Shown: positions 6,619-39,628 of the stretch, one piece after another | How the letters are laid out: every line of letters starts with the position of its first letter | Numbering within the stretch: position 1 is the stretch's first letter | Source: Paraburkholderia azotifigens | GTDB lineage: Bacteria > Pseudomonadota > Gammaproteobacteria > Burkholderiales > Burkholderiaceae | NCBI RefSeq assembly: GCF_007995085.1 | Contig: NZ_VOQS01000005.1 | Span: forward strand, 248,001 to 312,000 | Direction of reading: 5' to 3' | Length of the DNA: 64,000 bases | Notes under the pieces: model-generated | What the model was told of the DNA's origin: nothing | Database searches by the model: none | The model's input: the letters and a program-made list of their open reading frames with translations, nothing else | Position numbers and translations under genes: made by a program

Positions 6619-7866
6619 CTACGCTGCAGCGATGTTGATGGTGCGCGCGACGTCGACGACGGCGAGCCGTATCGCGTCAATCAACGCGCGCGCAGCGGGA
6701 GACGGTGTGCCCGCTGCGCGCAACGTCAGGCCGATATCGCGCCGCGTGTTGTGCAGCTTTACATCGAGCACGGCCAGTTCGCCCGACTGACATTCATAGT
6801 GCAACTGCTGCGTGGACAGTGCCGCAAGCATGTCCGTGCCGAGCAGCAAGCCGCGGATTACCGCGAGGTCCGCGGTCTCGACCGACGGCATCGGCGGCTT
6901 CAGCTTAACGCGTTTGAATTGCGCCTCGAACAGGCCGCGTGCGGGCGCGTGACTGCGCGGCACGATCCATTGCACGTCCTGCAGATCGGCGACTGTCAGA
7001 CCTCGTTCGTTTGCGAGCGGGTGCGTGCGGCGCGCGAGCACGACCATATCTTCCGACATCAGGCGCTCGTTCATCAGACCGCTCGACGCATCGTTCTCGC
7101 GCAACGCGCCGAGAATGAAATCGATATCGCCTGCACGCAGTCCCGCCACCAGCGTTTCATACGCGCTCTCATCGGTGATGATGCGCACGCCCGGATGCTT
7201 CGCGCTCATGCTCGCGATCGCCTTCGGCAGGATCAGCGTGCGGCCGAGCGGCAGCGCGCCCACGGTCACTGCGCCCTGAATGTAGCCGTGCAATGCGGCG
7301 ATATCGTCGGGTACGTGACGCAGTTCGTTCAACGCGCGGCGCACGTGTAGCAGAAATGTTTCGCCCTCCGTCGTCAGCAGAATGCCGCGCGGGCTGCGGT
7401 GGAACAGTTGCAGTCCCGAACCGCTTTCGAGTACGCGTATCGCGGTGCTCACAGCGGGCTGGCTGATGCCGAACGCCTTCGCCGCACTGGGCATATGCCG
7501 ATGGCGCGCGAGCGCGGCAAACAGTTGCAGTCGGCGCGTATTGAGCAGATACGCAGGCAATGAACCTTCCGCAGCGGGACGTCGGCGCGCCTGACGCGCG
7601 GCGCACCATCGCGCGAGTTCTTCGAGTTCGGCGAAGAGCCGTTCGCAGCGATGCAGCACGGCGCGGCCGACGGGCGTCGGCAACATGCCTGAAGGCTTGC
7701 GGTCGAAGAGCGGTTCGCCGAGCGCCGCTTCGAGTTCCTGCACGGAACGCGTCACAGCCGACTGCGCGCGAAACAACGCGGACGCGGCGCGCGTCGCGCT
7801 GCCCGTATCGGCAACGAGCTTGAAGGCGCGCAACTGCGCAATGTTGAGAAAGTCTTTGCTGCTCAC
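6619..7866 (-). CDS. LysR-family regulator with two N-terminal HTH domains
   Basis: At 415 residues this is about 110 longer than a normal LysR protein. There are two complete winged-helix domains in tandem. The first spans about 8-70 (LRAFKLVADTGSATRAASAL, LFDRKPSGMLPTPVG). The second spans about 108-170 (LQLFAALARHRHMPSAAKAF, LFHRSPRGILLTTEG). A single effector-binding domain follows (VTVGALPLGRTLILPKAI onward). Each HTH retains the A-V-S/T recognition-helix pattern (SAVTRSVQELE and PAVSTAIRVLE). It lies next to a FadR-type regulator and upstream of an aromatic-acid transporter, so control of aromatic or organic acid use is plausible. Confidence 0.93.
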   Translation of the reverse strand: MSSKDFLNIAQLRAFKLVADTGSATRAASALFRAQSAVTRSVQELEAALGEPLFDRKPSGMLPTPVGRAVLHRCERLFAELEELARWCAARQARRRPAAEGSLPAYLLNTRRLQLFAALARHRHMPSAAKAFGISQPAVSTAIRVLESGSGLQLFHRSPRGILLTTEGETFLLHVRRALNELRHVPDDIAALHGYIQGAVTVGALPLGRTLILPKAIASMSAKHPGVRIITDESAYETLVAGLRAGDIDFILGALRENDASSGLMNERLMSEDMVVLARRTHPLANERGLTVADLQDVQWIVPRSHAPARGLFEAQFKRVKLKPPMPSVETADLAVIRGLLLGTDMLAALSTQQLHYECQSGELAVLDVKLHNTRRDIGLTLRAAGTPSPAARALIDAIRLAVVDVARTINIAAA

Positions 7867-9164: not shown

Positions 9165-10508
9165 ATGCAACCCGCAGAATCAGTCGACATCAAGGCGTTC
9201 ATCGACGCACGCAAGGTGTCGGCGTACCAGTGGCTCGTGCTTTTTTTGTGCTTCTGGATCGTCACGATGGACGGGCTCGACACGGCTGTGATGGGCTTCG
9301 TTGCGCCCGTCATCATGCACGACTGGAGCGTGAGCCGCGCCGCGTTCGGTCCCGTGATGAGCGCCGCGATGGTCGGCCTTGCGGTGGGCGCACTGGTCGC
9401 CGGCCCGATGGCGGACCGCGTCGGACGCAAGAAGGTGCTGATCGGCTCCGTATTCTGCTTTGGCTTCTTCAGCCTGCTGTGCGCATTTGCAGAGACGCCC
9501 ACGTCGCTTGTCATGCTGCGCTTTCTCACGGGCCTCGGTCTCGGCGCCGCGATGCCCAACTCGACGACGCTGCTGTCCGAGTACGTGCCCTCGCGCAGCC
9601 GTTCGCTGCTGCTGACGATCATGTTCACGGGCTTCAATTTCGGCTCGGGTGCGGGCGGCTTCGTCGCCGCGTGGCTGATTCCGAATCTGGGCTGGCGGTC
9701 CGTGTTCATGTTCGGCGGCATTCTGCCCATTCTCAGTGTGCCGCTGCTGGTCTGGTTGCTGCCCGAGTCCGCGCGTCTGATGCTGGTGCGCAAGGTGGTC
9801 GCGCAGCGCATTGCGCGCACGCTGGGACGCGTGTGCGGACACCGCTTCGGCGAAGACGTGCGCTTCACCGCGCCGGAGCCTGTCGTCGCTGCGAAAGCGC
9901 CTGTCCGCATGCTGTTCGCGGACGGTTACGCAATGAGCACGCTGATGCTGTGGGTCACTTATTTCATGGGCCTGCTGATCATCTATCTGTTGACGGGTTG
10001 GCTGCCGACGCTCATCAAGGACGCCGGCCTCCCCGTCGAACGCGCTGCCGCGATCACGGGCATGTTCCAGCTTGGCGGCACGATCGGCGCAGTGGCCGTC
10101 GGCTTCGCAATGGACCGCATGGACCGCAACGCGGTGATCGGCACAGCGTATCTGCTCGGCGGCGTCTTCATCTTCGCGCTCGGCATGGGCACGCTGAAGT
10201 CCGACATGCTGCCTGTGCTCGTCGCGTGCGCGGGCTTCTTCATGAGCGGCGCGCAGACGGGCCTCAATGCGCTTGCGCCGAGCTGTTACCCGACGCGTGC
10301 CCGTGCGACGGGCGTCAGCTGGATGCTGGGCTTTGGCCGGCTCGGCGGCATTCTCGGTTCGCTCGTGGGCGGTGCATTGCTCTCGCTGGGCTTCAGCTTT
10401 GCGGCCGTGTTTTCGGTGCTCGCCGTGCCCGCCGTGATCGCGGCCTTCGCGATCGTGATGAACCGTGTCGCGTTGCGCTTCATCACGAGCCCTGTCGCGG
10501 ATGCATGA
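9165..10508 (+). CDS. MFS transporter, aromatic acid:H+ symporter (AAHS) family
   Basis: This is a 447-residue, 12-helix permease. The N-terminus (VDIKAFIDARKVSAYQW, then TMDGLDTAVMGFVAP) is diagnostic of AAHS transporters such as those for 4-hydroxybenzoate, protocatechuate or benzoate. The loop 2-3 MFS signature is ADRVGRKKV, and TM4 carries the RFLTGLGLGAAMPN motif. It imports an aromatic or related carboxylate with protons across the inner membrane. A porin-type gene follows 109 bp downstream and may supply outer-membrane passage. No ring-cleavage genes are adjacent, so the substrate is open. Confidence 0.94.
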   Translation: MQPAESVDIKAFIDARKVSAYQWLVLFLCFWIVTMDGLDTAVMGFVAPVIMHDWSVSRAAFGPVMSAAMVGLAVGALVAGPMADRVGRKKVLIGSVFCFGFFSLLCAFAETPTSLVMLRFLTGLGLGAAMPNSTTLLSEYVPSRSRSLLLTIMFTGFNFGSGAGGFVAAWLIPNLGWRSVFMFGGILPILSVPLLVWLLPESARLMLVRKVVAQRIARTLGRVCGHRFGEDVRFTAPEPVVAAKAPVRMLFADGYAMSTLMLWVTYFMGLLIIYLLTGWLPTLIKDAGLPVERAAAITGMFQLGGTIGAVAVGFAMDRMDRNAVIGTAYLLGGVFIFALGMGTLKSDMLPVLVACAGFFMSGAQTGLNALAPSCYPTRARATGVSWMLGFGRLGGILGSLVGGALLSLGFSFAAVFSVLAVPAVIAAFAIVMNRVALRFITSPVADA

Positions 10509-10617
10509 AACGCGCGCCATTCATGCCGTGCCCGGCTCGAGCGACTGGAGAACATTGCGCCCGATCCACTAAAAGAATCCAAACAGCAGTAAAACCAGGA
10601 AGATGGAGGTCAGAAGA

Positions 10618-11837
10618 ATGAAGAGGAGTACCAGCAGCGCAAAGGCAGTCGTGATCGGGGCTGCCCTCGTCGGCAGCGTGCCGGCATTCGCGCAAAGCAG
10701 CGTGACGCTGTACGGCATCGTCGATAACGGGCTGGCCTATCAGAGCAGCTCGACCTCGCTCGGCTCGACGAGTGGCGGTCACTCTGTCGTCAAGATGACG
10801 CCGGGCGTGTGGGCGGGCAGCCGCTTCGGCCTGAAGGGGGAGAAGATCTCGGCGGCGGCACCAAGGCGATCTTCCAGCTCGAGTCGGGCTTGAACTCGGG
10901 GACGGGCGCGGCGCAGTACACCAACGCACTGTTCGGCCGCCTTGCGTATGTCGGTGTGACGAACGCCAGCTACGGTACGTTCACGGCGGGCCGTCAATAC
11001 GCTTCGTATTACCAGCTGCTGTCGCCGTATAGCCCGACTACGTGGATCACGGGCTTCTATGGCGCTCACCCTGGCGATATCGACGGACTCGACACGATCT
11101 ACCGCGCGAACAATACGCTCGAATACACGTCGCCGAAGCTGTACGGCTTGACGGTGAGCGGCTCATACTCGCTCGGCGGCGTGGCGGGCAGCGTGAATCA
11201 GGGTTCGACGTGGACGGGAGCGGTCCAGTATGCGATGGGTCCGATCGGCCTCGCAGTCGGTTTCTCGCGCATCAACAACTCGACGTCGGGCGGCGGCGCG
11301 TGGGGCTCGGATTCGACCACGACGAACGGCGGCTCGCAGGTCGGCGTGTCCGCGTTGACGAACGGCTATCAGACGGCCCGCGCGCAGCAGCGCTTTGCGG
11401 TGGGCGGCGGCTATACGTTCAACAGCGCGTGGGACGTCACGGCGACGTACTCGAACGTCCAGTACATCCCTGGCATCAACTCGAAGTTCACCGACACGGC
11501 GATCTTCAATACGGGCGGTGTCGTACTGCACTGGAAGCCGGCTGTGGTGTGGGACTTCGCGGCAGGCTACAGCTATACGCGTGCTACGCGCGCGAACGGC
11601 ATTACGGATAGCGCGTCGTATCAGCAGTTCAACCTCTCGCAGTACTACTCGCTGTCGAAGCGGACCGGCCTCTATGCGCTCGAAGCGTATCAGCGCGCGA
11701 ACGGCAAGACGCTCGGCACGAACGGCGCGGGTCAGATCATCGACGCGACTGCGAGCATCGGCGACGGCTTCAATTCGACGCCGGCATCGTCGGCGAGTCA
11801 GTTCGCGTTTGGTCTGGGCATCATCCACCGCTTCTGA
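10618..11837 (+). pseudogene. Gram-negative porin, single-base frameshift
   Basis: The start at 10618 follows GGAGG and encodes a signal peptide ending VPAFAQ, then SSVTLYGIVDNGLAYQSSS, the standard opening of Burkholderia porins. The first frame fails after GSRFGLKG near 10840. The second frame resumes at EDLGGGTKAIFQLESGL and runs to the terminal Phe of IIHRF at 11837. One extra G in the five-G run 10836-10840 would restore a continuous porin of about 406 residues reading LKGGEDLGGG. It is closely similar along its length to the intact porin at 16081-17310. Either the gene is inactivated or the base is a sequencing error. Confidence 0.9.
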
Positions 11838-30230: not shown

Positions 30231-31145
30231 CTAGTTCACACGGTAGCCTGCAATCCAGCCATGAAGCTGTTCAACTTCAGGACTGAGTGGACGCTGATCA
30301 TTGCGCATCAAGAAGTAGCCTCGACCTGGACGCACGCTCAACGAAGACAGGCGGGCCAGTCTGCCGCTACGAATTTCCGAGTCGAGCAGATGACGCGTGC
30401 CGAGCGTTACGCCTCTTCCTCGCGAGGCCGCATCGACGAGCACGTTGTAGTTGTTGCCATACTCGGTTGCCCTCACGCGGCTCGGGTCAACACCGAGCGA
30501 CTTGAACCAGATGGACCAGTTGATCCAGTTCGGCTGGATGCGTTCGTACTCGAGAAGCACCTGCGATAGCAATGCTTCGGGACCGTCGCCAGTCAGCGGA
30601 TGACTCTCGATATAGGCCGGACTCGCGACGGGGAATATCTCTTCCTCGAACAACAACTGCGCCGTCCAGTTGATTCGCTTGCCGGGGTCATACGCGACGA
30701 CAAGGTCGACGCCGTCGTTGAACAGATCGGAAGGCTGGTCGGACGTAATGGTGCGAATGCTCGCGGCAAAGCTCGGATTGCGGGCGCGGAAGTCCCTCAT
30801 CACTTCACTCAGCCAGAAATGCGAAATCGCCGTGTTTGCGGCCACCGTCACCATACTCGCGTTCCGCTTGTCGCTGATTTCGTCGACGGCATCAGCGAGG
30901 TAATTGAACGCCGCGCTGACCTTGTTATGAAGCTGCGTCCCACGCGGCGATAGCTGCACGCGTCGACCGGTCCGCTCAAAGAGTGCAAAGCCAAGCCCTT
31001 CCTCGAGCTGGCGGATCTGCTTGCTGACGGCTGCCTGTGAAACATGAAGCTCTTCGGCGGCTCGCGTGAAATTCAATGTCCGCGCCGCGGCCTCGAAAAA
31101 CATCAGGCTCGTCAGCGGCGGAAGGCGATGACGCAAACTCTTCAT
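30231..31145 (-). CDS. LysR-family regulator (GcvA-like)
   Basis: The 304-residue protein has an N-terminal HTH (LTSLMFFEAAARTLNFTRAA, QAAVSKQIRQLEEGL, LFERTGRRVQLSPRG) and a GcvA-type effector domain. It is divergent from the DddP-like gene at 31307 with a 161 bp gap, making it the likely regulator of that operon. An inverted repeat with T-N11-A spacing overlaps its start codon, consistent with negative autoregulation. The inducer is unknown; an osmolyte or its breakdown product is the natural guess. Confidence 0.93.
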   Translation of the reverse strand: MKSLRHRLPPLTSLMFFEAAARTLNFTRAAEELHVSQAAVSKQIRQLEEGLGFALFERTGRRVQLSPRGTQLHNKVSAAFNYLADAVDEISDKRNASMVTVAANTAISHFWLSEVMRDFRARNPSFAASIRTITSDQPSDLFNDGVDLVVAYDPGKRINWTAQLLFEEEIFPVASPAYIESHPLTGDGPEALLSQVLLEYERIQPNWINWSIWFKSLGVDPSRVRATEYGNNYNVLVDAASRGRGVTLGTRHLLDSEIRSGRLARLSSLSVRPGRGYFLMRNDQRPLSPEVEQLHGWIAGYRVN

Positions 31146-31158
31146 AACGCAGGGTTAT
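31144..31158. promoter_or_regulatory. Putative LysR-type box at regulator start
   Basis: ATAAC-GCAGG-GTTAT has perfect 5-base arms and the T-N11-A form of LysR boxes. It overlaps the LysR start codon in the divergent promoter region. A second inverted repeat, AACC-AGA-GGTT at 31270-31280, lies 26 bases before the DddP-like start. Confidence 0.4.
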
Positions 31159-31306: not shown

Positions 31307-32563
31307 ATGACTACGCTTGACTGGCATCGCGAGCGCCACGATCCTGGCGAACTTCAGTTGCTCGATCGAACCATGCATGGCTCGGACATCGACCTCGTGT
31401 CGGTGCGAGCGTATCGCCTTGGCAGAGTCCGCGCGGAAATGCGAAAGCGCGATATCGCGGCCTTGATCATCTGCGACCCGGTGAACATCCGGTACGCCAC
31501 GGGCGCGCGCAACATGCAGATTTTTTGCGCCCGGAATACGCCGTCGCGCTACCTCATCGTCACGGAAACACGGACGATTCTGTTCGAGTTCACCGGTTGC
31601 GAGCACCTGGCCGACGGCCTTGAGACCATTGACGAAGTTCGGCCATCGTCAACCGCCAGTTTCGTCGCGGCAGGCCCGGCCATCGCGGCGCGCGAAACGG
31701 CATGGGCGGCCGGCATGGCGGCCACGCTGACCGAACTCGTCGGCGCGAAGCCGACAGTCGGTATTGAGCGCATGAACGCGGGAGCCGCGCTTGCGCTGGC
31801 GGGGCACGGTGTCCGTCTGGTCGATGCGCAGGAGCCGATCGAGATGGCGCGTGCGATCAAGTCGGCCGAGGAACTGAAATGCGTGATCGCTTCGCTGCGC
31901 GCGACAGAAGCCGCAGTCGGGAAGCTTCGGGACGCGATCAGGCCCGGCATGTCGGAGAACGAGCTGTGGTCTGTGCTGCATCAATCGGTCATTGCTCAGG
32001 ATGGCGACTACGTCGAGACTCGCCTGTTGAGCGCCGGGCGTCGAACCAACCCGTGGTTCCAGGAAACATCGAGCCATGTCATCGAACCGAATCAGCTGAT
32101 TGCGCTGGATACCGATGTCGTCGGCTGTCACGGCTATTACTCCGACTTTTCCCGTACCTTCCACGCCGGGCCTGACAAGCCGGGCGAGAACCAGTGCACG
32201 CTCTACAAGCTGGCTCACGAGCAGGTGCATCACAACATCGGGATTATCCGGCCGGGCATGACGTTCAGGGAGTACAGCGACAAGGCCTGGAACATCCCGG
32301 ACAAATATCACGCGAATCGCTATTACCTGTCGGCACACGGGTGCGGTATGACGGGCGAATATCCGTACCTCTATCATCACTCGGACTTCGGCGCATCCGG
32401 CTATGACGGCGAGATCCAGCCGGGAATGACGCTGTGTGTCGAGAGCTACATCGGCGAACAGGGCGGACAGGAAGGCGTGAAGCTCGAGCAGCAACTGCTC
32501 GTGACAGAGACAGGAACGCGACTGCTTTCGCTATTTCCCTTCGAAGAAACACTGCTGCGCTAA
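31307..32563 (+). CDS. M24-fold metallo-hydrolase, DddP (DMSP lyase)-like
   Basis: The 418-residue protein has an N-terminal creatinase-like domain with DPVNIRYATGARNMQIF, which resembles the matching DddP segment, and the central SAGRRTNPWFQETS. The C-terminal pita-bread domain has all five M24 metal ligands: Asp in ALDTD, Asp in YSDFSRTF, His in SAHGCGM, Glu in LCVESY and Glu in GVKLEQQ. DddP cleaves dimethylsulfoniopropionate to dimethyl sulfide and acrylate. As I recall, characterised DddP reads HGVGLCDEWP with an Asp catalytic base; here the aligned stretch is HGCGMTGEYP with Gly. The enzyme may therefore act on a related osmolyte or amide. It starts a run of genes with a betaine-type binding protein and an FAD oxidoreductase. 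Confidence 0.8.
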   Translation: MTTLDWHRERHDPGELQLLDRTMHGSDIDLVSVRAYRLGRVRAEMRKRDIAALIICDPVNIRYATGARNMQIFCARNTPSRYLIVTETRTILFEFTGCEHLADGLETIDEVRPSSTASFVAAGPAIAARETAWAAGMAATLTELVGAKPTVGIERMNAGAALALAGHGVRLVDAQEPIEMARAIKSAEELKCVIASLRATEAAVGKLRDAIRPGMSENELWSVLHQSVIAQDGDYVETRLLSAGRRTNPWFQETSSHVIEPNQLIALDTDVVGCHGYYSDFSRTFHAGPDKPGENQCTLYKLAHEQVHHNIGIIRPGMTFREYSDKAWNIPDKYHANRYYLSAHGCGMTGEYPYLYHHSDFGASGYDGEIQPGMTLCVESYIGEQGGQEGVKLEQQLLVTETGTRLLSLFPFEETLLR

Positions 32564-32619
32564 GCAAGACGGCGCTGTCAGTGCTGGACGGTTTCAACTC
32601 TCACATGGAAGCGTAGAAA

Positions 32620-33483
32620 ATGACCAGGATGCTGAGATTGTGCAAGTGGCTGCTGCCCGTCGTCTTTCTGCTGACGGGCGCTGCAGCCCATGCAGAAGAC
32701 AAGTCGATCACGATCGGCGTGAACAACTGGGCCGAGAATATCGCCGTCGCGAACATGTGGAAGATCCTTCTCGACGAGAAGGGCTTCAAGGTTCAGTTGC
32801 AGAACGCAGACAAGGCGCTCATCTACAACAGCGTCGCGCAGGGGAAGATCGATCTGACCTTCGAAGTCTGGCTTCCTGCAGGCGACAAGCCTGCGTTCGA
32901 CAAGGTCAAAGACAGAGTGGTACAGATCGGGCCGTGGTTCAAGGAAGCGAACCTGGGTCTGGTCGTTCCTGACTACGTAGCCGTCGACAGCATCGATCAG
33001 TTGAACGCGAATAAAACGCTGTTCGCTTCGTCTGGTCGCGCGAAGGTCGTCGGCATCGACTCCGGCAGCAGTCTGATGCAGTTGACGGAGAAGGCGAAGG
33101 CAAACTATCAGCTCGACTATGACATTCAGTCGTCGTCCGAGTCTGCGATGGTTCTGTCGCTCGAGCGGGCGATTCAGCGCAAGGAGCCTGTGGTCGTGAC
33201 GCTGTGGAAACCGCACTGGATCTGGTCCAAATACAAGCTGAAGTATTTGAAGGATCCGAAAGGCGCCTACGGTGCGAGCGATTCTATCTATGGCATCGAG
33301 TCCCCAACGTTCAGGAAGCAGCATCCTGACGTCGAGCGATGGTTGCAGCAATGGAAGATGGATGACAACTCGCTCGGAAGCCTGATGTCGGAAATCATCA
33401 AGCAAGGCGCGTCGACGCCCGAGAAAGGCGCGAAGGTTTGGATCGATGCGAACCGCACGCTGGTACAGCAGTGGACGAAGTGA
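32620..33483 (+). CDS. Glycine betaine/choline-type binding protein (OpuAC/ProX family)
   Basis: The 287-residue protein has a clear signal peptide (MTRMLRLCKWLLPVVFLLTG, ending AAHA) and a mature region of the OpuAC type: ITIGVNNWAENIAVANMW, DLTFEVWLPAGDK and TLWKPHWIWSKYK. The many Trp residues suit the aromatic cage that binds quaternary ammonium or tertiary sulfonium groups. It lies 56 bp after the DddP-like gene. No ABC permease or ATPase genes are present, so it must use components encoded elsewhere. It is expected to capture betaine, choline, carnitine or a DMSP-like compound. Confidence 0.9.
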   Translation: MTRMLRLCKWLLPVVFLLTGAAAHAEDKSITIGVNNWAENIAVANMWKILLDEKGFKVQLQNADKALIYNSVAQGKIDLTFEVWLPAGDKPAFDKVKDRVVQIGPWFKEANLGLVVPDYVAVDSIDQLNANKTLFASSGRAKVVGIDSGSSLMQLTEKAKANYQLDYDIQSSSESAMVLSLERAIQRKEPVVVTLWKPHWIWSKYKLKYLKDPKGAYGASDSIYGIESPTFRKQHPDVERWLQQWKMDDNSLGSLMSEIIKQGASTPEKGAKVWIDANRTLVQQWTK

Positions 33484-33563
33484 GTCAGCGCTCAGCGCGA
33501 CGACGCGTCCCGGCACCGCTTTGATCATCCCGATCCAGATTTCTTTCACTCCGCACGTCCGAC

Positions 33564-33881
33564 ATGAACGCTTTCATCACGACTCCATCGATCTCCAGAG
33601 AACGAGCGCCGGATGGCATCGAGCACACGACCGCCCGTTGGCAAACCTGGCATTGCGACAGCAACACGTTCCAGCATCGCTATGTGCCGGGCGCGACGTT
33701 CTACGTCGTCAAAGGCCGCGCACGACTGACCTTCGCACACGGCGCGCAACTCGATATCGAAGCCGGAGATTTCGTCTCCATCGGTGACGGCGCGGAGGCA
33801 GTGTGGGAAATCTCCGCGCCCGTCGAAACGCGCTACGCGTATCACGACGATCGCAGACCAGCGACGGAGGCGCGATCATGA
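33564..33881 (+). CDS. Small cupin-domain protein
   Basis: The 105-residue product shows a single cupin barrel: FQHRYVPGATFYVVKGRARL, then DIEAGDFVSIGDGAEAVWEI. The usual metal ligands are poorly conserved, with the first motif reading HRYVPG, so a binding or regulatory role is as likely as catalysis. It has no signal peptide. Its stop codon overlaps the start of the GMC oxidoreductase gene by ATGA, which shows tight coupling. I infer an accessory role in the same pathway, such as binding a carboxylate intermediate. Confidence 0.75.
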   Translation: MNAFITTPSISRERAPDGIEHTTARWQTWHCDSNTFQHRYVPGATFYVVKGRARLTFAHGAQLDIEAGDFVSIGDGAEAVWEISAPVETRYAYHDDRRPATEARS

Positions 33882-35512
33882 GCGAGGCCGTGGAATTCGA
33901 CTATGTGATCGGAGGGGCAGGCTCGGCAGGCTGTGTACTTGCGCGCCGGCTCGCTGATGCGGGTAATCGGGTACTGCTGATCGAAGCGGGACCGCGCGAC
34001 AACTCGTGGGTGATCCGTATGCCTGCCGGTCTGAGATCGATCTTCAAGCCGAGCTCACGATATAACTACTGGTTCGAGACCGAGCCGCAGCGCAACCTCG
34101 GCAACCGCCGTATCCAGCAGCCGCGCGGTCGCGTTCTCGGCGGCTCGTCTTCGATCAACGGCATGACATGGCTGCGCGGTCATCCGCTCGACTACGAGCG
34201 CTGGGAGCAGGAAGGTGCGTCCGGCTGGAGCTGGAAGGATTGCCTGCCGTACTTTCGCAAGATCGAGCGAAGCGATGTGGTCAGCGCCTATCGAGGTAAC
34301 GACGGTTTCATTCATGCACAGCGTCAGGAGCATCTGTGTCCGCTCAACCAGGCCTTTCTCGACGCAGGAATCGAAGCTGGATTTCCACTCACCGAAGACG
34401 TCAACGGATTCCGGCAGGAAGGCGTATCGCGCTTTGAGATGAGCGTCGATCACGGTATTCGCAACAGCGCCGCGTACGGCTACCTTCATTCGCGCAAGGA
34501 CGACGGAAATCTTACGATCTGGACTCAGAGCACGCTCGAGCAGATCAATCTCATCGGCAACCGGGCGACGGGATTCAAGGTGACGCGCGACGGCTCTGCT
34601 GTGAATGTCACTGCACGAAAGGAGACGCTGCTTTGCGCGGGTGTCTTCGGCTCGCCGCAACTGCTGATGTTGTCAGGAATCGGGCCCGGCGATCACCTCA
34701 ACGAAAAAGGCATTGTCCCGCGAGTGGAGTTGCCCGGGGTCGGAGAAAATCTGCAGGATCATCTTGAATGTCACATTCAGGTCGAAACCAGGGAACCTGT
34801 CTCGCTCAACCGGGAGCTGCAACTTCACCGGATGTTGTGGGCTGGCGTGCAGTGGTTCGGTTTCAAGTCGGGCGTTGCGTCCGTCAACCAGTGTCATGTG
34901 GGCGCCTTTCTGAAGAGCGCTTCTCACATTCCCCATCCGGATATCCAGTTTCACTTTTTTCCAGTGTTCTTCAACAAGGACTGGATACCTACACGGCACA
35001 CAAATGGGTATCGCATCGGAGTCGGTCCAATGCGTCCGACCAGTCGTGGGCGTGTCCGGCTGAAGTCCAGGCGGGCCGAAGATCCACTTTCGATCGACCC
35101 GAACTACATGAAGACCGAGGAGGACTGGCGCGTGATGCGCGAGTCGGTACGGCTTGGGCTGCTGTTTTCACGACAACCCGCGTTCCGTCGCTTTCATTAC
35201 CGTGAAGACATGCCAGGCGTCGATGTAAGCGCGATCGCGGATGTCGACGAGTTCATCAGGCAGGACGCGTCGAGTGCCTATCACCCCTGTGGAACCTGCA
35301 AGATGGGAGCGAAGCACGATCCGTCTGCCGTCGTAGGTCCCGATCTGAAAGTCCGGGGGGTAGAGCGACTGCGTGTCATCGATGCATCGGTGATGCCGTC
35401 TGTGCCGAGCGCGAATATCAACGCTGCGACCATCATGCTAGCCGAGCGGGCGAGTGATCTTGTGCTCGGGCGTCCAGCGATGCAAGCACAACCTCTGCAG
35501 TTCGCTGCCTGA
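33878..35512 (+). CDS. GMC-family FAD oxidoreductase (choline dehydrogenase-like)
   Basis: Started at 33878 inside the ATGA overlap with the cupin gene, the protein has 544 residues. It has the N-terminal FAD motif VIGGAGSAGCVLARRL, GMC signature 1 (RGRVLGGSSSINGMTWLRG) and signature 2 (GSPQLLMLSGIGPGDHL). Active-site His lies in SSAYHPCGTCKMG and Asn in SANINAATIMLAE. Relatives oxidise choline, other alcohols or hydroxyacids to aldehydes with FAD. Next to a betaine-type binding protein a choline-like alcohol is an obvious candidate, but no betaine aldehyde dehydrogenase gene is present, so the substrate stays open. Confidence 0.93.
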   Translation: MSEAVEFDYVIGGAGSAGCVLARRLADAGNRVLLIEAGPRDNSWVIRMPAGLRSIFKPSSRYNYWFETEPQRNLGNRRIQQPRGRVLGGSSSINGMTWLRGHPLDYERWEQEGASGWSWKDCLPYFRKIERSDVVSAYRGNDGFIHAQRQEHLCPLNQAFLDAGIEAGFPLTEDVNGFRQEGVSRFEMSVDHGIRNSAAYGYLHSRKDDGNLTIWTQSTLEQINLIGNRATGFKVTRDGSAVNVTARKETLLCAGVFGSPQLLMLSGIGPGDHLNEKGIVPRVELPGVGENLQDHLECHIQVETREPVSLNRELQLHRMLWAGVQWFGFKSGVASVNQCHVGAFLKSASHIPHPDIQFHFFPVFFNKDWIPTRHTNGYRIGVGPMRPTSRGRVRLKSRRAEDPLSIDPNYMKTEEDWRVMRESVRLGLLFSRQPAFRRFHYREDMPGVDVSAIADVDEFIRQDASSAYHPCGTCKMGAKHDPSAVVGPDLKVRGVERLRVIDASVMPSVPSANINAATIMLAERASDLVLGRPAMQAQPLQFAA

Positions 35513-35800
35513 CAAGATTTGCCGAACGGTTTCGGTACGCGCGTCCGGCGATTTCGGGTTGATCTGCCAATCGCCCTCCGACGACGGCTCGAGTGTACGA
35601 ACAGCTGGAGAGCGCTCTGGCTATCAAGAGGCACTTTCGGGTCAAGGCTGCGGAGGCGGGGACATCGGTCGCGATCCGGCCAGGCGATCGCGGACCCGGC
35701 TACGAGCAGGCGCAAATCGGTGAGCATCTGCAGTCGAAGCAATCCGCATGGTCACTGTGCGGCTAAAATCGACGATTCCGAAGACGGTCCGAAGGTCAAC

Positions 35801-36715
35801 ATGGAAATCAAATGGATTGAAGATTTCATCGCTCTTGCGCAGTACCAGAGCTTTTCCCGCGCCGCTGAATTTCGTAATGTCACGCAGTCCGGTTTCAGCC
35901 GCCGAATCCAGTCGCTCGAGCAATGGGTCGGCGCTGAACTGATTGACCGCAGCAGCTTTCCTCCCGTCCTGACCCCCGCCGGTCAGCTGTTTCGTGAAGT
36001 CGCCGACGATGTTCTTTCCCGGCTTCTCGATACGCGGGCCATCATCCGCACTGAGCAGCGCATCGCGGGCAAGAGTCTGCAGATTTGCGCGGGACACACG
36101 ATAGCCCTGAATTTCCTTCCGACATGGCTCAAAGCGCTCGCGCCGCAATTCGGGGAGGTACGGGCGCGCGTCATTCCGACGAACGTCCACGACTCGATTC
36201 TCATGCTCGTGAACGGCAATTGCGAGCTGATGTTTGCCTATCATCATCCGGAGCTCCCACTCCATCTCGACGCCGCGAGGTATGAGCATCTCACCGTTGG
36301 TCTCGATACCCTGATGCCAACCAGCAGGTCAAACGAGCGTTCGGCTCCCAAGTTCCGCCTGCCGGGGACCAGGCAACGTCCGCTGCCCCTTATCTCCTAC
36401 ACCGAAACAAGTTACTTCGGACGTTGCCAGGCGCTGCTGTTGAAGAAGGCATCGGACGCGCTGTCGTTGCGGCTGCACTATGAGTCCGACATGGCGGAAG
36501 TTCTGAAGAAACTCGTCATGGAGGGGGAGGGCGTGGCCTGGCTCCCCAGGAGCACGATCACGAAAGAGCTTGCCGATGGCGATCTCGTACCGGCAGGGCC
36601 GGCGAGCTGGCACCTGCAGGTGGAACTGCGCGCATATCGTGATTCAACGAATCGCAGCGAATTCCTGGATACGCTGTGGTATCACCTGCGCGCGGGCTCC
36701 GCCACGCTGGAATAG
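35801..36715 (+). CDS. LysR-family regulator, HypT/YjiE-like subgroup
   Basis: The ATG at 35801 was chosen because it begins MEIKWIEDFIALAQYQSFS, the family start; the frame is open far upstream without meaning. The 304-residue protein has the HTH with QSGFSRRIQSLEQWVGAELI and an effector domain with DSILMLVNGNCELMFAYHHP and GEGVAWLPRSTI. This layout resembles E. coli HypT (YjiE) more than the catabolic LysR groups. It precedes a DctA, racemase and aspA set on the same strand by about 180 bp and probably regulates it. Confidence 0.9.
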   Translation: MEIKWIEDFIALAQYQSFSRAAEFRNVTQSGFSRRIQSLEQWVGAELIDRSSFPPVLTPAGQLFREVADDVLSRLLDTRAIIRTEQRIAGKSLQICAGHTIALNFLPTWLKALAPQFGEVRARVIPTNVHDSILMLVNGNCELMFAYHHPELPLHLDAARYEHLTVGLDTLMPTSRSNERSAPKFRLPGTRQRPLPLISYTETSYFGRCQALLLKKASDALSLRLHYESDMAEVLKKLVMEGEGVAWLPRSTITKELADGDLVPAGPASWHLQVELRAYRDSTNRSEFLDTLWYHLRAGSATLE

Positions 36716-36893: not shown

Positions 36894-38171
36894 ATGAAGA
36901 ATCGCCTTACCCTGAGCATCGCGGTAGCCATGCTCCTTGGAGTCGGAGCCGGGTACGCATGCCACACGAACATTGCTGACCCCGCCACGCTGAAAGCGGT
37001 TGCCGGCTACTTCTCGATTGTCACGGATATTTTCCTGCGTTTGATCAAGATGATCATCGCGCCGCTGGTCTTCGTCACACTCGTGTCGGGGCTGGCGGGG
37101 ATGGATAGCGGCGACGATGTAGGCCGGATCGGGCTGCGCTCGGTTGGATGGTTCATCAGCGCATCACTCATCTCTCTGGCGCTCGGACTCGTCATGGCAA
37201 ACGCGCTGCAACCCGGCGCAGGCCTGCATCTGACTGAGAGCTCCAGCGAAGTGAATACAGGGCTCAATACGGCTGCACTGAACGTCAAGGACGTCATCAC
37301 GCACGCATTCCCGACAAGCCTGCTGGATGCGATGGCGCGCAATGACATCCTGCAGATCCTCGTCTTCTCGCTCTTCCTTGGCGTCGGCCTTGGTGCACTC
37401 AAGCGCGACTCGCGCGTCGGCGTCGTCATCCAGGCGATCGACGGAATGGTCCCTGTGATGCTTCGGCTCACGAACTACGTCATGCGTGCTGCGCCGCTAG
37501 GTGTCTTTGGTGCCATCGCGTCGTCCGTGACGCTGCGTGGCCTAGATGTCATCTACACCTACGGCAAGCTCATCGGCTCGTTCTACCTCGGGCTGCTGAT
37601 CCTCTGGGCTATCCTCGTCGCAATCGGCTACGCTTTTCTCGGACGCAAGGTGGGTAGTCTGCTGAAGGCAGTCCGTGAACCCGCGATGATTGCATTCTCG
37701 ACGGCAAGCAGCGAGGCTGCATATCCGCGACTCACCGAGCAGCTGGAGAAGTTCGGCGTCGACAAGAAGGTGGTTGGTTTCACGTTGCCACTGGGCTATG
37801 CATTCAACCTGGACGGTTCGATGATGTATCAGGCGTTCGCCGCGATTTTCATTGCGCAGGCCTTTGGTGTCCACATGCCGGTGTCGCAGCAGATTCTCAT
37901 GTTGCTGATTTTGATGTTGAGCAGCAAGGGTATGGCAAGTGTGCCGCGCGGGTCGGTGGTCGTCGTTGCCGCTGTCGCGCCGATGTTTCATCTGCCTGTC
38001 GCCGGCGTGGCTTTGGTCCTGGCGATCGACCAGATTCTCGATATGGGTCGCACGATGACCAACGTGATCGGCAATAGCGTTGCGACTGCTGTGATCGCGA
38101 AATGGGAAGCTGCACGCGAAGCAAAGTCGACGGACGCCTCCTTTGAGCAGGTGGAGGCCGGTGCACAATGA
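36894..38171 (+). CDS. Dicarboxylate/amino acid:cation symporter (DctA family)
   Basis: The start is at 36894 (MKNRLTLSIAVAML) with AGGACGG upstream; an ATG at 36888 is also possible. The 425-residue DAACS protein has RLIKMIIAPLVFVTLVSGL, the FSTASSEAAYP loop, LPLGYAFNLDGSMMYQAFA and LMLSSKGMASVPRGS. It is expected to import aspartate, fumarate or related dicarboxylates with cations. Its stop codon overlaps the racemase start by ATGA, and aspA follows, so aspartate is the likely substrate. It is a paralogue of the symporter at 28378-29685. Confidence 0.94.
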   Translation: MKNRLTLSIAVAMLLGVGAGYACHTNIADPATLKAVAGYFSIVTDIFLRLIKMIIAPLVFVTLVSGLAGMDSGDDVGRIGLRSVGWFISASLISLALGLVMANALQPGAGLHLTESSSEVNTGLNTAALNVKDVITHAFPTSLLDAMARNDILQILVFSLFLGVGLGALKRDSRVGVVIQAIDGMVPVMLRLTNYVMRAAPLGVFGAIASSVTLRGLDVIYTYGKLIGSFYLGLLILWAILVAIGYAFLGRKVGSLLKAVREPAMIAFSTASSEAAYPRLTEQLEKFGVDKKVVGFTLPLGYAFNLDGSMMYQAFAAIFIAQAFGVHMPVSQQILMLLILMLSSKGMASVPRGSVVVVAAVAPMFHLPVAGVALVLAIDQILDMGRTMTNVIGNSVATAVIAKWEAAREAKSTDASFEQVEAGAQ

Positions 38172-39628
38172 GCGCGACGGTGGCGGAAAGCCGGCGCAAG
38201 CTGGGCGTAGTCGGAGGACTGGGCCCGCTGGCGAGCGCCGATGTGTTCTTCAAGATCGTGAAGGCGACGCCGGCGTCCTCCGACGCCGAGCATGCCGAGG
38301 TCATCTTCGAGCAGCGCCCGTTCAAGGGAGCCGGGGCGGGTAGTGCCGCGACGACGGAGCGCAAACTGTACATCTTCGACATGATCCGTGATTTCGAAAA
38401 ACGCGGAGTAACGATGGTTGTGCTCCCGTGTTTTCTGAGTCACACGTTTATCGACGAACTGAAGGCAAATACGAGCTTGCCTATTGTCGATATCGTCGAA
38501 GCCGTTCGCAGCCACGTGCAGCGAAAATTCCCCGCCGCGAAGCGTATCGGTGTGCTCGCATCCGATTACGTCCGTGAAAAGCGGCTCTTTGAACGGTATT
38601 TCGCCGCCCCCGAATTCGAGGTCGTGTATCCGCGCACTGCCGACGATACCGATACGGTAACTGAAGCCATCTATGGGTCCGACGGTATCAAGAGCGGCAA
38701 TCTCCGCGGCCGCCCTGTCGAGTTGCTGCGCGCTGCGTGCGAGAGTCTCATGGATCAGGGCGTCGATGTCATCGTGCCGGGCATGACGGAAATCGCCCTC
38801 GTCGCCGGGGAAATCGGTCAGTTGCAGGTGCCACTTGTCGATTCCAATATGGCGTATGCGCAGTATGTCGTCTCTGGCGGTCCCGGTTCGCCTGCCCCGG
38901 TTTTCAAGGTCGGCGTGGTGGGAGGCGTAGGCCCTGCTGCGACGGTCGATTTCCTTAACAAGGTCGTCCGTCATACGCCGGCGTCGCGCGACCAGGATCA
39001 CATCAAGCTTCTGATTGAGCAAAATCCGCAGATTCCCGACCGAACAGAAAACCTGATCAGTGAAGGGGTGGACCCGACCGTCTCGCTCTACGCCACGTGC
39101 AAAAAACTGGAAGACGGTGGCGCAGACATCATCGCAATTCCCTGCAACACTGCGCATGCGTTCGTTGACCGGATCCAGCCGTATCTCGGGATACCTATCG
39201 TCAACATGCTCACCGTCACGGTGCGCTACCTGCGTGATTCCTTTCCCGGCTTGCGCGATGTCGGCGTACTGGCCACATCAGGCACGATCGGCAGCGGTGT
39301 CTACCAGAAGGCTCTCGAATCGCAGGGCCTGCACCAGATTGCCCCTGGCGCCGCTTTGCAGGCGCGTGTGATGGAAGCCATCTACGGAATGAACGGCGTC
39401 AAGGCAGGTTTCACGACCGGTCAATGTCAGGAAGACATCGTCGCAGCAGTCGAGGGACTGATTGCCGGGGGCGTTGAAGTCATCATCCTCGGATGCACCG
39501 AACTCCCAATCCTTCTTCCAGCAGGCGAATTCGTCGGCTGCAACGGCGGGCGCGTGCAACTGATTGACCCGACAGAAGTCCTGGCGAGGCAATGCATTGC
39601 TTACGCGAAGGGCGGCGCCGCCAACTGA
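38168..39628 (+). CDS. Tandem-domain aspartate/glutamate racemase family protein
   Basis: The 486-residue protein is two Asp/Glu racemase domains fused head to tail, each near 235 residues. Both begin alike: LGVVGGLGPLASADVFFKIV at about residue 12 and VGVVGGVGPAATVDFLNKVV at about 248. The C-terminal domain keeps both catalytic cysteines (IPCNTAHAF and LGCTELPIL). The N-terminal domain keeps the first (VLPCFLSHTF) but has Met in place of the second (VPGMTEIAL), so it is probably not an active racemase. The gene is translationally coupled to dctA and followed by aspA. Interconversion of D- and L-aspartate before deamination is the natural role. Confidence 0.88.
   Translation: MSATVAESRRKLGVVGGLGPLASADVFFKIVKATPASSDAEHAEVIFEQRPFKGAGAGSAATTERKLYIFDMIRDFEKRGVTMVVLPCFLSHTFIDELKANTSLPIVDIVEAVRSHVQRKFPAAKRIGVLASDYVREKRLFERYFAAPEFEVVYPRTADDTDTVTEAIYGSDGIKSGNLRGRPVELLRAACESLMDQGVDVIVPGMTEIALVAGEIGQLQVPLVDSNMAYAQYVVSGGPGSPAPVFKVGVVGGVGPAATVDFLNKVVRHTPASRDQDHIKLLIEQNPQIPDRTENLISEGVDPTVSLYATCKKLEDGGADIIAIPCNTAHAFVDRIQPYLGIPIVNMLTVTVRYLRDSFPGLRDVGVLATSGTIGSGVYQKALESQGLHQIAPGAALQARVMEAIYGMNGVKAGFTTGQCQEDIVAAVEGLIAGGVEVIILGCTELPILLPAGEFVGCNGGRVQLIDPTEVLARQCIAYAKGGAAN

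Follow-up and report, generated by a model that had tools for sequence, protein, structure and literature searches.

A DddP-like M24 protein with glycine at the lyase aspartate position, encoded with a betaine-type binding protein in Paraburkholderia azotifigens

Introduction

DddP, which releases dimethyl sulfide (DMS) and acrylate from dimethylsulfoniopropionate (DMSP), differs from the M24 peptidases by an extra, sixth metal ligand and by the exchange of two histidines for Asp and Phe, as set out in one report (PMC5395565). In another, Asp377 of DddP is described as invariant and favoured as the catalytic base, with Tyr366 named as an alternative base (PMC4108388). Here we analyse a 64,000-nucleotide stretch of the P. 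azotifigens genome (assembly GCF_007995085.1, contig NZ_VOQS01000005.1, positions 248,001 to 312,000; hereafter the window), in which a DddP-like M24 protein, P0001, is encoded together with an OpuAC-type betaine-binding protein, a small cupin, a GMC oxidoreductase and a divergent LysR regulator. P0001 represents a variant form of an enzyme kind already known, in a superfamily that is widespread but little described. Among the papers listed by our literature search, whose coverage excluded most subscription papers, none describes this M24 family with glycine in place of Asp377 (Gly-type) or the LysR-M24-OpuAC-cupin-GMC gene set.

Our reading of the locus, held with middling confidence and drawn from sequence comparison, is that it forms a LysR-regulated module for the uptake and cleavage of a quaternary-ammonium betaine, with a DddP-type two-metal site that employs another base. 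The OpuAC-type protein would capture the betaine and presumably hand it to a core transporter encoded elsewhere. The M24 protein, from the Gly-type branch of the superfamily that includes DddP, would bind the betaine carboxylate at its six-ligand two-metal site and probably break a carbon-heteroatom bond of the imported compound, the part of Asp377 being played by a metal-bound hydroxide or by a base particular to the family (Tyr339, Tyr340, His357 or Glu351). Paraburkholderia and Caballeronia loci appear to have a further module joined to the first, made up of a cupin and a choline-dehydrogenase-like flavoenzyme, and this GMC flavoenzyme would oxidise a cationic amino alcohol from the compound family to which the betaine belongs. 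A first-pass annotation of the window had already proposed that a DddP-like enzyme here has an altered active site and is linked to the uptake of betaine-type compounds, which alignment and neighbour enrichment uphold.

Active Site of the M24 Protein

P0001 (31,307–32,563, plus strand, 418 residues) scores 107.6 bits against the Pfam domain Peptidase_M24 and 39.6 bits against Creatinase_N. In a search of the PDB its best match is DddP (E 2e-65), followed by proline dipeptidase at E 1e-11, and DddP structures are also its closest solved structures (template modelling score, TM, 0.78). With the NCBIfam DddP model NF043017 it reaches 292.7 bits against a cut-off of 600. In the alignment to RlDddP and RdDddP, the residue numbering of which is anchored by the PDB titles ‘RlDddP mutant D377N’ and ‘Y366A’, Gly350 (codon 32,354–32,356, plus strand) stands opposite Asp377 and Tyr339 opposite Tyr366. 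All six DddP metal ligands (three Asp, two Glu and one His) are present as D268, D270, D280, H344, E379 and E394, so that P0001 retains the five common M24 ligands plus the sixth of DddP; the retained ligands and the glycine at the DddP aspartate, both noted in the first-pass annotation, are borne out. The positions of the two peptidase histidines, occupied by Phe and Asp in DddP, are Phe251 and Gly350 here, which leaves P0001 without the peptidase histidines and without the lyase aspartate. Which two histidines bind substrate in M24 peptidases is in part our own assumption.

P0001 thus shares with DddP (RlDddP, 4rzy/4s00/4s01; RdDddP, 4b28) the fold, the six ligands, the tyrosine equivalent to Tyr366 and the Phe that replaces one peptidase histidine. 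It is nevertheless only 28–29% identical to these proteins in structure alignments and 31–37% identical to six DddP-clade genes, belongs to a separate clade, and carries Gly350 for Asp377 and Phe73 for the tryptophan at residue 95 (counted on the DddP alignment), for which we presume a role in DddP. With the M24 Xaa-Pro dipeptidases, creatinase and the ectoine hydrolase DoeA it has in common the pita-bread fold and the five common metal ligands, but it differs from them in its sixth ligand and in the loss of the peptidase histidines, and identity in structure alignments falls to 15–22%. DddP is therefore the closest of the enzymes with which alignment had been proposed, and the Gly350 substitution stands. 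Judged by search scores, P0001 does not fall among ordinary Xaa-Pro peptidases, the placement that would have spoken against the first-pass proposal.

Conservation of the Glycine and Phylogeny

A scan of genome contigs returned 242 M24 relatives, of which the best 80 loci were kept. The 80 orthologues are 68–94% identical and come from several proteobacterial classes, Streptomyces and one spirochaete. Glycine at the Asp377 position is a clade-wide trait, present in all 80 as well as in the window, and the residue-95 tryptophan is replaced by the equivalent of Phe73 in 80 of 80. Over 116 M24 rows (the window, the 80 loci, paralogues from the same genome and matches in 20 searched genomes, with some genes entered twice) the position is occupied by Gly 99 times, by Asp 16 times and by Asn once; after removal of copies with identical C-terminal 300 residues, the 104 remaining rows give 87, 16 and one. 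Ten additional rows contributed Val three times and His once, the latter in a distant protein, the remainder being Asp or Gly. The metal ligands and Tyr366 are retained in 125 of these 126 rows, the sole exception being a 23%-identical protein. The Asp377 position covaries with the residue-95 position, in that Asp pairs with Trp in 17 of 20 cases, all 101 Gly rows have Phe or Tyr, and all three Val rows have Trp.

A tree built from 57 of the 116 rows has a branch (support 100/99) that separates the Gly rows on one side from the DddP rows on the other. Forty-three family-diagnostic positions, including Tyr340 and His357, are at least 97% fixed in 81 family rows, which were picked as Gly rows, and different in the six DddP-clade rows. 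Tyr339, Tyr340, His344, Gly350, Glu351 and His357 are invariant among 30 aligned orthologues, and Tyr339, Tyr340, His357 and Glu351 are candidates, on conservation, for the base that would replace Asp377.

These results bear directly on DMSP, which the first-pass annotation had named as a possible substrate alongside a related quaternary compound. The enzyme could in principle be a lyase of DMSP, or of dimethylsulfoxonium propionate (DMSOP), with Tyr339 as its only base, converting DMSP to DMS and acrylate in a soil bacterium. The DddP structures are after all its nearest, and the six ligands are retained along with Tyr366, an alternative base according to PMC4108388; ABC and BCCT carriers of the kind discussed below can import DMSP (PMC10030565). 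The score of P0001, however, is less than half of the DddP cut-off, it lies outside the DddP clade, and both Asp377 and the residue-95 tryptophan are lost throughout its own clade. In five of the 20 genomes that hold an orthologue there is, moreover, a separate gene over the DddP cut-off, and the GMC enzyme of the window is not of the type that adjoins methylmalonate-semialdehyde dehydrogenase. Because the key acid is gone here and in close relatives, the enzyme probably acts on another compound, and a quaternary ammonium compound is favoured by the N-methyl-type partners of its relatives (MttB-like and DMGDH-like genes) and by a GMC enzyme that groups with BetA. DMSP as the substrate is accordingly disfavoured, and we regard DMSP lyase activity as improbable, while the betaine half of that proposal is supported.

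Gene Neighbourhood and the Betaine Link

The gene order is LysR | M24-OpuAC-cupin-GMC, with lysR divergent and the other four genes on the plus strand; open reading frames (ORFs) and Pfam matches confirm this layout as it was first annotated, including an ATGA overlap between the last two genes. Of the named genomes, those of Paraburkholderia and Caballeronia hold the closest relatives of the M24 protein. The arrangement LysR | M24-OpuAC-(cupin)-GMC was found again in seven other Burkholderiaceae loci by the survey of synteny that had been suggested for this family, and since orthologues recur across genera as well, it is beyond chance.

The OpuAC-type protein P0002 (32,620–33,483, plus strand) scores 206.8 bits against PF04069, far over the cut-off of 21.2. 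Its best PDB match is Bacillus subtilis OpuAC (E 2.8e-40), and W37, W84 and W196 align with OpuAC tryptophans that we take to form the ligand cage. It is an orphan binding protein, as the operon has no permease or ATPase gene. CaiX and BetX, two orphan binding proteins of OpuAC type that work with the Cbc core transporter, are likewise each encoded by a lone binding-protein gene in a catabolic operon.

Neighbour genes were counted across the 80 loci as near (within 3.5 kb of the M24 gene) or far (the remaining stretch, with 1.7 times the number of bases), with labels from a small, self-chosen set of reference proteins. Enriched near M24 are OpuAC (17 loci near against one far), BCCT (8 against 0), MttB-like (6 against 0) and GMC genes (8 against 0); cupin (5 against 1), DMGDH-like (4 against 2) and oligopeptide-type binding protein genes (3 against 2) were also counted. 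A carrier, either OpuAC or BCCT, lies near M24 in 25 of the 80 loci. Since M24-adjacent OpuAC genes occur in Burkholderiaceae, Pseudomonas, Halomonadaceae, Loktanella, Sinorhizobium and one spirochaete, the association is not limited to one lineage, although related loci are not independent. The betaine link is thus supported by neighbour enrichment, though not at every locus.

Several observations weigh against the uptake-and-cleavage module that we propose. Within 3.5 kb of M24, the reference set matches no gene for a carrier, MttB/DMGDH or an oligopeptide-binding protein in 46 of the 80 loci; LysR alone is present in 22 of these 46, and the other 24 lack it as well. Genes for aldehyde dehydrogenase (ALDH; 5 near against 13 far) and 3-hydroxyisobutyrate dehydrogenase (HIBADH; 3 against 5) are not enriched beside M24, so that no product pathway is supported, and there is no clear enrichment near M24 of genes for AraC regulators (6 against 6), aminotransferases (4 against 4), DAO enzymes (1 against 6) or ABC ATPases (4 against 16). 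No neighbour gene names the substrate, and MttB-like and DMGDH-like are profile-based names with scores below the cut-offs. The active-site loop 339–348 is weakly modelled in the predicted structure (predicted local distance difference test, pLDDT, below 50). Gly-type orthologues at E ≤ 1e-190 occur in four of 299 genomes of the bacterial family, that of P. azotifigens included, and because of this rarity the pairing of M24 with GMC may be recent. HIBADH and ALDH neighbours were also considered as a sign of an acrylate or 3-hydroxypropionate route, a reading rejected for want of enrichment near M24.

The marker-free loci, together with automatic database names that read Xaa-Pro peptidase or M24 metallopeptidase, are what might be expected of an ordinary Xaa-Pro peptidase placed beside transport genes by chance. 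We consider this explanation hardly credible in view of the wide gap between the DddP and peptidase matches, the loss of the peptidase histidines and the enrichment of carriers beside M24.

The Cupin and GMC Module

The small EutQ-like cupin P0005 (33,564–33,881, plus strand; Cupin_3, 48.7 bits) is followed by the GMC oxidoreductase P0004 (33,878–35,512, plus strand), the stop of the former and the start of the latter sharing the letters ATGA, with the GMC ATG at 33,878; the list of ORFs extends the GMC frame upstream to a GTG at 33,803. Both GMC domains are over the Pfam cut-off. In its prolonged form the ORF scores 641 bits against PRK02106 (cut-off 605) and 580 bits against the BetA equivalog TIGR01810, which requires 732. 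When it is aligned to 9lq0 and choline oxidase, its AYHP, NIN and DHLE motifs supply the counterparts of the His, Asn and Glu found in choline oxidase and BetA, residues whose roles we take as established; the Glu position is Ala, Ala and Met in the three other GMC structures shown. In a quick tree with midpoint root the window GMC groups with genes from Pseudomonas citri, Zobellella, Halomonas and Rhizobium N324. This clade and the BetA clade, which is nearest to it, lie on one side of a branch (Shimodaira-Hasegawa-like approximate likelihood ratio test, SH-aLRT, 99), and the GMC genes that adjoin methylmalonate-semialdehyde dehydrogenase (loci L161, L205 and L208) lie on the other. That neighbour presumably marks the DddA/HpdH type of GMC enzyme, and a role for the window GMC as the 3-hydroxypropionate dehydrogenase (DddA/HpdH) of a DMSP route was rejected, as it groups with BetA and apart from these three.

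Like BetA, the window GMC has the GMC fold and keeps His, Asn and Glu at the aligned positions, but it forms a separate, adjoining clade below the BetA equivalog cut-off and is tied to OpuAC and a cupin. The canonical BetA of the same genome is encoded elsewhere (C3:291368, 919 bits). A cupin gene beside a GMC gene of the window type also occurs in Rhizobium N324, Zobellella, P. citri and the genomes G083 and G290. Rhizobium N324 has HIBADH-like, OpuAC, GMC, cupin and betaine aldehyde dehydrogenase (BADH) genes, with no M24 gene within the stretch shown. In P. citri, M24-OpuAC and GMC-cupin-OpuAC are two divergent operons, and G290 has M24-cupin-GMC-OpuAC on one strand. In G083 an M24 gene is divergent from GMC-OpuAC at two places, one of them with a called cupin and a BADH gene over both cut-offs (725 and 869 bits). 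The M24 proteins of the G290 and G083 modules belong to another subfamily, with 39–41% identity and Val at the Asp377 position, and the Gly-type M24 gene of G083 adjoins porin, OpuAC and ALDH genes and not GMC. GMC orthologues are present in four of the 299 family genomes, three of them shared with the Gly-type M24.

The combination of Gly-type M24 and GMC is therefore an accessory trait, and the gene set seems to have come together on more than one occasion, with M24 enzymes without the aspartate. The strongest argument for regarding the four genes as a set is the recurrence of cupin-GMC-OpuAC with the Val-type M24. The first-pass annotation had suggested a single osmolyte route for all four genes; they look like two joined modules, M24-OpuAC and cupin-GMC, rather than one fixed pathway.

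The GMC enzyme also brings into view a more specific chemistry. Microbial homocholine degradation can proceed through a beta-alanine betaine route, and the M24 enzyme could cleave a beta-ammonium betaine such as beta-alanine betaine, which the GMC enzyme together with an aldehyde dehydrogenase would make from homocholine, with release of trimethylamine as a nitrogen counterpart of the DMSP lyase step. This chemistry would be that of DddP with nitrogen for sulfur, the window GMC is nearest to choline dehydrogenase, BADH genes over both cut-offs accompany the module in G083 and Rhizobium N324, and HIBADH-type genes are found in L025, L035, L065, L157 and L217. We nonetheless think it unlikely, as neither HIBADH nor ALDH is enriched near M24 and the MttB-like and Rieske partners of relatives, which would act on N-methyl groups, would be superfluous.

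The LysR Regulator and Its Putative Operator

The divergent lysR gene (30,231–31,145, minus strand) encodes a regulator resembling GcvA and the choline-sulfate regulator. The Pfam domains HTH_1 and LysR_substrate are over cut-off, and the NCBIfam scores for GcvA (220.9 of 288) and TIGR03418 (208.2 of 324.8) are both below it. A gene with this LysR as its best match in the reference set is found no more than 3.5 kb from M24 in 48 of the 80 loci. Between lysR and the M24 gene lies an operator-like palindrome, ATAAC-GCAGG-GTTAT (31,144–31,158, not assigned to a strand), whose first two bases overlap the lysR start codon.

Sites of the form ATAAC-N5-GTTAT with at least nine of the ten half-site letters are present in 28 of the 48 gaps compared, those of 47 loci plus that of the window, against a mean of 0.33 and a maximum of one in 100 rounds of mononucleotide shuffling; the other 20 gaps hold ATTCC-N5-GTTAT on one strand in 17 cases and neither form in three. 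The pattern ranks first of 10,240 combinations of half-site and gap, the next four being its own shifted registers, and the reversed gap sequences give 0 of 48. Two caveats apply to these counts, since the left AT of the site mostly overlaps the lysR start codon and is hence fixed anyway, and some gaps align beyond the operator-like site. A wider regulon was sought with the exact operator in the P. azotifigens genome and rejected, as three places were found against two for a control pattern and the two other places were uninformative.

Palindromes of the T-N11-A type (ATAAC-N5-GTTAT or ATAAC-N5-GTAAT) also occur in paralogous GbcAB-like clusters, at L014 17,606, L137 7,569, L139 7,906, L136 10,185 and L146 5,791 and 10,718. 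The LysR genes of L014, L136 and L146 are 32–34% identical to that of the window.

The Wider DddP-like Superfamily

Other M24 subfamilies, whether Asp- or Gly-type, adjoin betaine ABC transporters and GbcA-like Rieske, MttB-like or DMGDH-like genes. The P. azotifigens genome itself encodes three M24 paralogues of 42–46% identity, all Asp-type. Among their neighbours, taking the three together, are GbcA-like (402 of 670 bits) and GbcB-like (341 of 500 bits) genes and a glutathione-independent formaldehyde dehydrogenase gene over cut-off, as well as an old yellow enzyme (OYE)-type flavoenzyme, OpuAC transport genes, and DAO, DapA-like and ALDH genes, all three of hydroxyproline type. Three Rhizobium species have Rieske-reductase-M24 with 4-hydroxyproline epimerase and betaine transport genes, and Sinorhizobium meliloti pSymA has MttB-like, Gly-type M24, isochorismatase-family, OpuAC transport and MLE-family genes. 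The trio MttB-DMGDH-M24 occurs with an Asp-type M24 in two Roseibium/Labrenzia genomes (L133, L134) and with a Gly-type M24 belonging to the window family at three Rhizobiales loci (L066, L068 and L090, the last with one intervening gene). The Rhizobium clusters, that of pSymA and those of the P. azotifigens genome (C5:1.37–1.40 Mb) resemble the window locus in combining a DddP-like M24 gene, OpuAC uptake genes and a LysR gene; they differ in having demethylase-type genes, in the place of which the window has GMC and a cupin, and mostly Asp-type M24 proteins (Gly-type in S. meliloti).

A constant M24 gene beside varying demethylase-like partners (Rieske, MttB-like, DMGDH-like, OYE-type) is what would be expected if the enzyme hydrolysed a betaine conjugate (an amide, ester or dipeptide), freeing a betaine for demethylases or a choline-type alcohol for the GMC enzyme. 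Such a role would also explain an amino-alcohol oxidase after M24 at the present locus, and M24 enzymes are as a rule hydrolases, creatinase and ectoine hydrolase sharing the fold. It is rather unlikely, however, given that P0002 aligns with binders of small betaines and that the peptidase histidines, replaced by Asp and Phe in DddP according to PMC5395565, are Gly350 and Phe251 here.

A broader proposal, which goes beyond uptake and cleavage at this one locus and which we put forward tentatively, is that DddP is one specialised branch of a wider betaine-catabolic superfamily of two-metal M24 enzymes with Asp, Gly, Val or Asn at the Asp377 position, acting on different quaternary-ammonium osmolytes beside different demethylases. 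Across Proteobacteria, the Gly-type clade would then catalyse a new betaine-cleaving reaction and be controlled through a LysR operator of its own, and some genes named dddP would not be DMSP lyases in the cell. In P. citri (L146, genome G003, about 9300–10,700), a gene over the NCBIfam DddP cut-off (625 bits) lies within a cluster of Rieske, ProVWX, DAO, DapA and ALDH genes, which suggests that the DddP name covers genes with another role and that the label may be wrong for this one. Some relatives do not fit this picture: in the stretches shown around a dddP-named gene of Paracoccus yeei and around a distant Phaeobacter protein, none of the annotated genes is a betaine carrier. If the proposal is true, a large family annotated as Xaa-Pro peptidase, plus some genes annotated as DddP, would in fact be betaine-degrading, the use of dddP as a marker for DMS production would be affected, and a so far undescribed step would be opened up in the way that bacteria from soil, plants and the sea degrade quaternary ammonium osmolytes. 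The natural Asp-to-Gly and Asp-to-Val variants on one scaffold, with their recurring partners, make the DddP mechanism directly testable.

An Asp-type DddP-like M24 gene on a plasmid of Rhodobacteraceae M382 (L151, 9923–11,185) lies with agmatinase, arginase, 5-guanidino-2-oxopentanoate decarboxylase and Rieske-type genes; its substrate is perhaps a guanidino compound.

Other Features of the Window

The contig that holds the window (C5) is 2.67 Mb long in a genome of 9.7 Mb. A HypT-like LysR gene (35,519–36,715) follows the GMC stop on the GMC strand. It was rejected as a member of the operon, since its helix-turn-helix (HTH) profile begins about 95 residues into the ORF and the next gene is never one of its LysR cluster in the seven other Burkholderiaceae loci that combine M24, OpuAC and GMC; the ORF probably represents a gene apart from the operon whose true start lies further on. 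A further LysR-type ORF, at 6619–7866, contains two HTH_1 stretches in one reading frame. At 38,168–39,628 a 486-residue ORF with two Asp/Glu-racemase stretches scores 379.8 bits against the NCBIfam cysteate racemase model (CuyB; cut-off 190) and is flanked by dicarboxylate symporter and aspartate ammonia-lyase genes, possibly as part of a cluster for cysteate or D-aspartate utilisation.

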